A stretch of 64,000 nucleotides of DNA from Pseudoselenomonas ruminantium. Its GTDB lineage: Bacteria > Bacillota > Negativicutes > Selenomonadales > Selenomonadaceae. The notes beneath the pieces are model-generated. The model saw only the letters and a program-made list of their open reading frames with translations, was not told the origin of the DNA and did not search any database. Below, in pieces: positions 41,977-44,110 of the stretch. Both the position numbers and the translations under genes were made by a program. Location of the stretch: positions 62,001 through 126,000 of the forward strand of contig SVBX01000002.1 of NCBI GenBank assembly GCA_015058655.1, given 5' to 3'. Positions within the stretch are counted from its first letter, which is position 1, and every line of letters starts with the position of its first letter.

Positions 41977-43590
41977 ATGATGATAGGAAAAGCTCCCAGC
42001 TTTATGCTGACGAAGGAAAACTTTGGACATGAACAGGGCAAAATTGAAAAAAAACTCTTGCAGATGGGCATAGAGCATGCGGCTGTCATGCGTTCCAGTA
42101 TCCTGCTGGAGGATATCTGCTACCGTCTTTTTGAGCATAAGAGCAAGGAGGTGAAAGTGGCAATAAAGCGTCGCTTTGGCGCGGTGAGCTTGCTTTTGCA
42201 GTCAGAGGGAGAGGCGTATAATCCTCTGATTGAGGAGAATTCCTGGACAGAGGAAGATGTGGACTATTTCCGTAACATTGTCCTGACCAGCAATCGTGAG
42301 TGGCTGGGGTATTCCCGCCGGAACGGCAAAAACTGCCTTTCCATACAGGTTCGCAAGGACAAGAAGAAGCAGGTGCGCTATACCCTGCTGGGCATGTTCC
42401 TGGGACTTATTGTTGGTTCTGTGCTTGAGGAAGTGCTCTCGCCGGAAATTGTAAGCATGATTGATACTTATGCGCTGCGCAGCGTTCGCACCATGTTCCT
42501 GAATGCCATGAACATGATGCTGGCGCCGGTGGTGCTCTTTTCCATTATGGCAGGCATCATGAATCTTTCCAATGCTTCGGAAGTGGGGAAACTGGGGCGG
42601 TATATGATGTGCCTGTATCTGGCGACTTCTCTGTGCGCCGCTGGCGCAGCGCTCTTTCTGGGCATCCATATCTTTTCAGGGGAATTTGTGCAGATAGGGA
42701 CAGCCGGAGATACCGCCGCAGCCCATGTGTCGCTGCTTGATATGCTGGTAGGCATTGTGCCGCATCAGTTTGTTGAGCCGGTGATATCCGGCAATATGCT
42801 GCAGGTTATTTTTTTGGCGTTGCTTTTTGGCCTGACCATAAACAGCATGGGGGAAAAAGCGCGTCCTTTGATTGATATCGTGAATTCCATGGACACTCTC
42901 TGCCTGAGGGTGATAAGGACTATCGTGCAGCTGGTTCCCTTGGTGGCTTTCCTTTCTATGGCCTCCCTTGTTTTCCAGGTGGGGCTGGAGTCGCTGTGGG
43001 CTTTTATGCAGGCGCTGGTTGCCCAAGGGCTGGTGCTGGTCTTTATGATGGCAGTGTACGGTGTTTTGGTGGCTGGGGTTGGACACCTCTCGCCCTGGAT
43101 ATTTTTGAAAAAGCTGATAGGTTTCCTGCCTTTGCCGGCATCTATGGGCAGTACGAATGCTGCCATGCCCTTTTCCATGGAGTTATGCGTCAAGCGCCTG
43201 GGGGTGCAGGAACAGCTGGCAGGTTTTGCCATCCCCCTTGGCGCATCGGTGAAGATGGATGGCAATTGTGCTTTCCTTATCCTGCAAAGCATTATGCTGG
43301 CCAAGCTGTACGGCATTGAAATAAGTTCAGGCTTCCTGATGACGCTGGCGCTTACTTCTGTGGCCTTGTCTTTCGGTTCGCCGGGCGTGACGGGAGGGGC
43401 GGTCATATGCCTGGCTTCGGTGGCTGTGTCCGTGGGAATTCCCATAGAGGCTATCGGCATGGTGCTGTCTGTGGATCCGCTGGTTTCTATGCTGCGGACC
43501 CCGCTCAATTCCGCAGGGGGCATCGCTGCTGCCTTGCTGTTGGCCAGGCATGAGAATGCTGTTGATGAGTCGGTTTATAGGGCAGATTAA
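41977..43590 (+). CDS. Dicarboxylate/amino acid:cation symporter with N-terminal RsbW-like ATPase domain
   Basis: A 537-residue fusion. Residues about 1-130 resemble the histidine-kinase-type ATPase fold of anti-sigma kinases: an N-box-like SILLEDICYRLFEH, a VSLLLQSEGEAYNPL strand/G1-like segment (compare G-x-FNP in RsbW), and NGKNCLSIQV as the last strand; the glycine-rich lid is short or absent. Residues about 135-525 are a DAACS (GltP-type) transporter with about eight helices, MASLV-type hairpins and KMDGNCAFLIL. Start is uncertain: ATG 41977 or 41980 after AGGGG. A STAS protein follows at 43709, suggesting partner-switch control of transport. Confidence 0.78.
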   Translation: MMIGKAPSFMLTKENFGHEQGKIEKKLLQMGIEHAAVMRSSILLEDICYRLFEHKSKEVKVAIKRRFGAVSLLLQSEGEAYNPLIEENSWTEEDVDYFRNIVLTSNREWLGYSRRNGKNCLSIQVRKDKKKQVRYTLLGMFLGLIVGSVLEEVLSPEIVSMIDTYALRSVRTMFLNAMNMMLAPVVLFSIMAGIMNLSNASEVGKLGRYMMCLYLATSLCAAGAALFLGIHIFSGEFVQIGTAGDTAAAHVSLLDMLVGIVPHQFVEPVISGNMLQVIFLALLFGLTINSMGEKARPLIDIVNSMDTLCLRVIRTIVQLVPLVAFLSMASLVFQVGLESLWAFMQALVAQGLVLVFMMAVYGVLVAGVGHLSPWIFLKKLIGFLPLPASMGSTNAAMPFSMELCVKRLGVQEQLAGFAIPLGASVKMDGNCAFLILQSIMLAKLYGIEISSGFLMTLALTSVALSFGSPGVTGGAVICLASVAVSVGIPIEAIGMVLSVDPLVSMLRTPLNSAGGIAAALLLARHENAVDESVYRAD

Positions 43591-43618
43591 AGCGCTTTAT
43601 TGGCATGTGAGCAAAAAA

Positions 43619-43646
43619 TTGACATATTTTTAGAAGGAAATAAAAT
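43619..43646 (+). promoter_or_regulatory. Promoter of the STAS gene
   Basis: TTGACA, 16-base spacer, TAAAAT, 63 bp upstream of the STAS start, in the gap after the symporter. Confidence 0.6.
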
Positions 43647-43708
43647 GCCCGTGTAGAATAAGACAGGTAAGATGGAAGGCAATGATAATGCGTCAAGGGG
43701 GAATCGAT

Positions 43709-44059
43709 ATGGAATTGAAGAAAGAAGTTTTTGGAGTATGGATCCTTTTCTCGCTGAAGGGGCGTCTGGATGCGCAGTCGGCACCGGATTTTGACAAGGA
43801 GCTTTTGCCTGAGATTGCCAAGCGCCTGGATATCGTGCTGGATGTCAGCGAGTTGGAATACATCAGCAGTATGGGAATCCGTTCACTGGTTCAGGCAGCT
43901 AAGAAAACCTCTGAGGTAAACCATCGCGTAGCGATTTGCGGCATGCAGCCGGAGGTCAAAGAGGTAATTGAGGTTTCCGGCATTGGCGCATTCCTGGATG
44001 TTTATGACAGCGTTTCAGATCTTCCCTTTGCAGCTGATATTCACAGGTCCAGGAGCTGA
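43709..44059 (+). CDS. STAS-domain protein (anti-anti-sigma factor-like)
   Basis: A 116-residue single STAS domain: IVLDVSELEYISSMGIRSLV contains the Ser that partner kinases phosphorylate (SSMG, about residue 57). VNHRVAICGMQPEVKEVIEV is the typical second half. Such proteins bind an RsbW/SpoIIAB-type kinase in unphosphorylated form. No sigma factor or PP2C phosphatase is adjacent; the nearest kinase-like domain is the N-terminus of the symporter 118 nt upstream. AAGGGGG precedes ATG 43709. Confidence 0.88.
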   Translation: MELKKEVFGVWILFSLKGRLDAQSAPDFDKELLPEIAKRLDIVLDVSELEYISSMGIRSLVQAAKKTSEVNHRVAICGMQPEVKEVIEVSGIGAFLDVYDSVSDLPFAADIHRSRS

Positions 44060-44080: not shown

Positions 44081-44110
44081 AAGGCAGGCGGGAGCGCGCC
44101 TGTCTTTTTT
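44081..44110 (+). terminator. Terminator after the STAS gene
   Basis: AAGGCAGGCG-N5-CGCCTGTCTT followed by T4. Confidence 0.8.

Follow-up and report, generated by a model that had tools for sequence, protein, structure and literature searches.

A DAACS-type transporter with a putative dead RsbW domain beside a STAS gene: the likely receiving end of a partner switch in Pseudoselenomonas ruminantium

Partner switches such as RsbV-RsbW-SigB-RsbU and SpoIIAA-SpoIIAB-SigF of Bacillus are built from a STAS antagonist with a conserved Ser, an RsbW-fold domain and PP2C phosphatases, and the same kinds of component recur in the system described here. A sequence-only reading of this DNA had held that the output of known partner switches is a sigma factor; its account of the anatomy and design of the locus stands, but that premise does not, since the output is a diguanylate cyclase in SiaC/SiaD, HsbA/HsbD and BgrV/BgrR (PMC8457831). 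STAS proteins have also been tied to transport. Thus, the STAS protein MlaB binds and controls the ABC ATPase MlaF, with phosphoregulation proposed (PMC7367683), and STAS regulates transport in the SLC26/SulP proteins (PMC8256260).

In the window (i.e. the whole stretch of 64,000 nucleotides that was analysed), a transporter gene at 41980..43590 of the + strand is a continuous open reading frame, uninterrupted also in relatives, which opens at TTG 41968 and encodes 537 residues from ATG 41977 or 536 from ATG 41980, the start used in orthologs. An N-terminal extension of about 128 residues precedes an SDF/DAACS domain at residues 136-524 (42382..43548, + strand; Pfam SDF PF00375, E 6.2e-76), which bears out the symporter identity assigned from the letters. 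The SDF stop is followed, 118 nt before ATG 43709, by a co-oriented gene for a stand-alone, SpoIIAA-like STAS protein (43709..44059, + strand; Pfam STAS, E 1.2e-18; NCBIfam ant_ant_sig, E 1.8e-20). Its reading frame (43682-44059) encodes 125 residues, or 116 if begun at ATG 43709, the likelier start, just before which stands AAGGGGG. The gap and the phosphorylatable Ser of the sequence-only reading were both correct: Ser63 (125-residue numbering; YIS-S-MG; codon 43868..43870, + strand) aligns with the phospho-acceptor Ser58 of SpoIIAA, and this Ser is kept in all 21 STAS frames checked near fusions. A sigma-70-like promoter candidate, TTGACA-16-TAAAAT, lies between the two genes (43619..43646, + strand; a consensus match only, 11/12) and a terminator-like hairpin lies 3' of the STAS gene (44086..44105, + strand), so that the two genes may be transcribed separately rather than on a common transcript. 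The neighbours, as named from their sequences, appear to be a hemL-like gene upstream and a xanthine/uracil-type permease gene downstream. At the window locus no kinase or phosphatase is found beside the pair, and any that serve it would have to act in trans.

The N-terminal domain (about residues 6-127, numbered from ATG 41977; 41992..42357, + strand) escapes searches with a single sequence: a Pfam scan of the whole fusion gave no GHKL match, Pfam and NCBIfam scans of the domain alone gave nothing useful, and NudC, which came up when phmmer was run against PDB sequences, was rejected as chance matches only. Profiles and fold comparison were, thus, needed. HATPase_c_2 is the sole Pfam family to match more than one member of the domain family (8 of 38, best E 9e-7), with one member above its gathering score (29.0 versus 27.4 bits). 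The family profile did not find RsbW among PDB sequences, so that the domain is tied to solved structures through its fold and through profile-profile comparison. In the latter, hhalign gave a probability of 98.4% over 136 columns against twelve intact RsbWs, and 97.6% when the profile was limited to the two closest clades. The AlphaFold (AF2) model of the domain (pLDDT 86, pTM 0.81) has the topology strand-helix-helix-strand-strand-loop-helix-strand-strand, and its best PDB matches are UsfX (8ih8, Z 11.9 over 117 residues), RsbW (6m37, Z 11.0) and SpoIIAB (1tid, Z 10.8). The best matches, all of RsbW type, score Z 10-12 with 101-127 residues aligned, several of them crystallized with STAS partners; histidine kinases score far lower (Z 7.5 at most). 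In the full-length model (pLDDT 78.5) the domain runs straight into the first membrane helix. By model and profile, then, the first 128 or so residues of the transporter have the RsbW/SpoIIAB fold, as had been supposed, and the region is predicted to fold like a GHKL ATPase of the RsbW type.

Three motifs named in the sequence-only reading do align with RsbW, namely the N-box-like helix SILLEDICYRLFEH (residues 41-54; 42097..42138, + strand), the G1-like strand QSEGEAYNPL (residues 75-84; 42199..42228, + strand), opposite the DxGxPFNPL strand, and the terminal strand NGKNCLSIQV (residues 116-125; 42322..42351, + strand). In the alignment, Asp46 (codon 42112-42114, + strand) occupies the catalytic, STAS-facing Glu position, and Arg50 (codon 42124-42126, + strand) replaces the Mg-binding Asn. 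The Asp of DxGxPFNP is gone from QSEGEAYNPL, which retains the Gly and the Asn-Pro, and the glycine-rich ATP lid expected between this strand and NGKNCLSIQV is missing. Throughout the SDF-fused domains, the N-box Asn, the G1 Asp and the glycine (GG) lid are each kept in 0 of 47; in RsbWs that stand alone or are fused to PP2C or STAS, they are kept in 14/14, 13/14 and 13/14, respectively. The fused domains do retain the G1 glycine (45/47), the Asn-Pro that follows it, and an acidic residue at the position of RsbW Glu49 (37/47; Asp46 in the window), which in the Bacillus subtilis crystal touches Ser56 of RsbV, the phospho-Ser (PMC7340262).

The loss of all three ATP-site features marks the fused domain as a pseudo-kinase rather than the kinase of the switch and, taken with the conserved acidic position, indicates that catalysis was lost and the docking face, at least in part, was likely kept. 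By its motifs, the N-terminal domain is a catalytically dead RsbW without an ATP site, which probably retains its STAS-docking face, and the doubt voiced at the outset about kinase activity is strengthened. The RsbW fold and homology, and an adjoining STAS protein with an intact acceptor Ser, could also suggest that the domain phosphorylates its neighbour, making the fusion a self-contained transporter-kinase; with the Mg-binding Asn, the G1 Asp and the lid absent from 47 of 47 fusions, and a separate intact RsbW present in the complete modules described below, such activity is very improbable, and the motif losses leave next to no room for it.

The reading that we favour, and hold to be rather likely, is that the fusion-STAS pair forms the receiving end of a partner switch, with a membrane transporter as the output. 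A signal would cause a membrane-bound sensor PP2C to remove the phosphate from the STAS Ser, which would be phosphorylated by an RsbW-type kinase or, in some relatives, by an APH-type domain fused to STAS. Once dephosphorylated, the STAS protein would bind to the dead RsbW domain of the transporter and change the activity of the latter, so that an external signal could set substrate uptake without new transcription; for the window pair, kinase and phosphatase would act in trans. The identities of the components rest on homology and linkage; we infer docking and gating, namely STAS binding, its dependence on phosphorylation and whether it activates or inhibits, along with the substrate and the kinase and phosphatase serving the window pair.

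Linkage was assessed at several scales. In each of the six loci fetched for the ortholog group of the window protein, STAS adjoins the transporter: it lies downstream in the same orientation in four and is divergent in two, and at least three different neighbourhoods are represented. Across ten genomes, 8 of 22 genes scored as fused have a STAS gene within 3 kb, against 0 of 37 unfused SDF genes (p 1.4e-4); one unfused gene (G010:C17:127378) had been scored as fused, and the corrected counts, 8/21 versus 0/38, do not weaken the result. When fusions are grouped into 18 clusters less than 50% alike, STAS is found within 3 kb in eight and PP2C within 5 kb in seven. Single linkage joins most fusions into a single cluster once more sequences are added, so the raw rates are the safer statement: among 114 pooled fusions, STAS is found near 33, PP2C near 20 and both near 16, each within 3 kb, with about 1.4% per gene expected by chance for STAS, a value that assumes independent clusters and uniform STAS density, while the fusions are phylogenetically related and their counts are not independent. 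A second set of loci, picked by domain alone, gives the same picture. Homologous fusions are, thus, associated with STAS genes, which answers one of the two grounds for refutation named at the outset, the fold answering the other.

About 71% of the sampled fusions have no STAS gene within 3 kb, among them all nine fusions of an MFERW-type clade, and any partner in such cases must act in trans. This figure, and the ability of RsbW-type domains to dimerize on their own (PMC7340262), would fit a domain that serves as a structural, trimer-assembly or small-molecule-binding module, its STAS and PP2C neighbours reflecting ancestry shared with MATE and ABC operons rather than contact. We consider this quite unlikely overall, although a purely structural role may apply to fusions that have no STAS gene nearby: the linkage recurs in several distant clades (the 8 of 18 clusters above), it outlasts changes of neighbourhood and orientation among the window's orthologs, and it is not seen for the unfused SDF genes of the ten genomes.

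The composition of some loci also points to a partner switch. Locus L268 is a complete module of STAS, RsbW, fusion and PP2C genes with gaps of 9-60 nt, in which the fusion occupies the place of sigB in the rsbV-rsbW-sigB order; L277 and L254 hold similar whole modules, and L148, which comes from a different family of the phylum, combines a STAS gene with those for a PP2C-RsbW protein and the fusion. PP2C, STAS-APH and fusion genes are found together in L064, L066, L259 and L261. The PP2C proteins at fusion loci mostly carry dCache and HAMP sensor parts. Proteins in which STAS is fused to an APH-type phosphotransferase were observed in L064 (7439-9118), L066 (7490-8699), L110 (2232-3431), L149 (5038-6621), L259 and L261, in operons with PP2C and fusion transporters, and in L149 an intact RsbW is on the same chain as both; the APH-type domain is a possible alternative STAS kinase. 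In the window's own genome, some 17 kb upstream of where the window begins, a cluster (L095; G000:C46:40000-54000) encodes a 5TM-5TMR_LYT-PP2C protein, a STAS protein and an intact RsbW, followed by a condensation-domain protein, and is a candidate for the partner that serves the window pair in trans; the genome also has two orphan dCache-PP2C genes (L097 and L098). Separately, genes for a divergent RsbW-like protein (170 residues), a PP2C (359) and a STAS protein (102) were noted at L100 (G000:C24:98000-104000), apparently beside pilus- or secretion-type genes.

The SDF domain matches transporters of the GltPh family of known structure, and its substrate and ion sites can be read against theirs, the roles of the TM7 and TM8 residues being taken from GltPh and DctA. 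In TM8 the equivalents of GltPh R397, T398 and N401 are kept (R507, T508 and N511), and D394 and D405 are replaced by S504 and G515; TM7 reads KMDG, with K426 for GltPh N310. Ser in place of the Asp that meets the amino group is also the arrangement in DctA, and with Arg, Thr and Asn kept it makes a C4-dicarboxylate the likeliest substrate, so that the window protein probably transports such a compound. The Lys in TM7 and the Gly in place of Asp405 suggest altered Na+ sites and altered ion coupling. In L144, L147, L148 and L067-L070 the SDF domain departs from the canonical substrate and ion motifs of TM7/TM8, which are missing or altered (e.g. YKPG, SPSA), which suggests that these SDF proteins are receptor-like or unusual transporters.

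The strongest rival to transport as the output starts from here. A transporter-like protein might sense its substrate, and its pseudo-RsbW domain capture or free STAS, which would then act on another RsbW, a phosphatase or another transporter. Loss of the canonical substrate and ion residues in some fusion members suits a receptor more than a transporter, DctA is known to act as a co-sensor with DcuS/DctS (PMC6978683), and in the window STAS is the only local partner, with intact RsbW/STAS/PP2C clusters elsewhere in the genome. On the other hand, dedicated dCache-HAMP-PP2C sensors are already present in the operons, the main TM8 substrate-binding residues are kept in the window protein, and an output of the SigB/F type is wanting: no SigB/F/G-type sigma factor (TIGR02980) scores over the cut-off in 12 Selenomonadaceae genomes, the window's included, and none of the SigB/F type was seen among the neighbouring reading frames of fusion loci.

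Related domains on other transporters also bear on this point. Degenerate RsbW-like domains form the C-terminus of amino-acid-type ABC ATPases (L061:10132-11250, - strand; L103:3316-4446, + strand; L106:4760-5920, - strand; L150-L152), and a one-chain ABC importer made of binding protein, permease and ATPase (L157:6609-9359, - strand) ends in one. The window's genome has a MATE-family transporter with a C-terminal HATPase_c_2 domain (E 1e-9; L096:3534-5357, - strand, G000:C9), in which the N-box Asn and a G1-motif Asp are still present. Several MATE and ABC fusions adjoin PP2C or STAS genes. Both ABC ATPase subunits and MATE pumps work as motors, not as receptors, and a RsbW-like domain on ABC motors indicates that it controls transport rather than senses. 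For these reasons we regard a sensing fusion as unlikely, and gating of the transporter by STAS remains the preferred reading. Similar MATE-GHKL genes were seen in L101, L102, L107-L110 and L113, several near PP2C, STAS and NRPS condensation-domain genes.

The fusion occurs in many Negativicutes, with 147 of 380 genomes matching the profile of the domain, and in a few other Bacillota. A search of 100 relatives placed the domain at 45 sites in 21 genomes, all but one being SDF fusions, whole, broken or partial; the remaining site, L021, encodes a RsbW-type ATPase that stands alone and matches the window domain with E 7.6e-4 and HATPase_c_2 with E 2e-25. A 137-residue match in L068 (2710-3123), taken up as a possible stand-alone form, was rejected as an SDF fragment, and no relative was found among viral contigs. 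In the tree, all SDF-fused domains form one clade (100/99), the MATE-fused ones a second, and the ABC-fused ones lie nearby, which points to one origin of the SDF fusion and many later duplications. Named homologs come from Selenomonas ruminantium, Schwartzia, Anaerovibrio, Acidaminococcaceae and other rumen MAGs; the closest ortholog, 96% identical, is from a Selenomonas ruminantium genome placed in the window's genus. Two or more tandem pseudo-RsbW-SDF genes, 10-124 nt apart, were observed in L278 (G687:C9), L249 (G664:C9), L287 and L288, and some Selenomonadaceae genomes have up to ten profile matches.

Overall, the evidence suggests that, in Selenomonas of the rumen and its relatives, transporters too are opened and closed by an on/off switch otherwise familiar from the control of sigma factors. 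A wider proposal is made tentatively, the doubt being slightly greater than the belief: Negativicutes and some other Bacillota may employ the partner switch generally to gate transport without recourse to transcription, in which case dead RsbW domains on DAACS transporters and ABC ATPases, and related RsbW-like domains on MATE transporters, receive dephosphorylated STAS as set by membrane PP2C sensors. If so, a transcription switch would double as a direct controller of nutrient uptake, a transporter gene having replaced that of the sigma factor; a defined role would fall to many of the SpoIIE-type phosphatases and STAS proteins of bacteria that lack SigB or SigF; and major rumen bacteria would control their transport of dicarboxylates or amino acids post-translationally. 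The fusion would also be a case of a pseudo-kinase in which catalysis is gone and fold and partner linkage are kept.

Searches of the open-access PMC literature turned up no account of a transporter fused to a pseudo-RsbW receiver. Each of the closest systems shares some features with the present one. With the Bacillus switches the likeness extends to gene order, rsbV-rsbW-sigB corresponding to the STAS-RsbW-X-PP2C of L268, but X is here a transporter fused to a second, dead RsbW, and in the 12 Selenomonadaceae genomes no SigB/F/G-type sigma factor passed the cut-off. In SiaABC-SiaD, HsbA-HsbD and BgrV-BgrR, a STAS or STAS-like protein under PP2C/kinase control directly gates a non-sigma effector (PMC8457831); here the effector would be a transporter and the contact domain a pseudo-RsbW, and the window locus has no cyclase. 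In MlaFB, as proposed here, a stand-alone STAS protein controls a transporter, but MlaB contacts the ABC ATPase directly, with neither a RsbW-like receptor domain nor a known kinase/phosphatase pair. SLC26/SulP proteins likewise tie STAS to secondary anion transport, dicarboxylates included (DauA); there, however, STAS is C-terminal and in cis, whereas the window pair, which has no SulP membrane domain with a STAS in cis, combines an SDF membrane domain of the DAACS type, bearing the RsbW-like domain, with a STAS protein that is encoded by a separate gene and so lies in trans. Finally, DctA-DcuS/DctS also couples a DAACS dicarboxylate transporter to a signalling protein (PMC6978683), but its partner is a histidine kinase, bound non-covalently, and it is transcription that responds.
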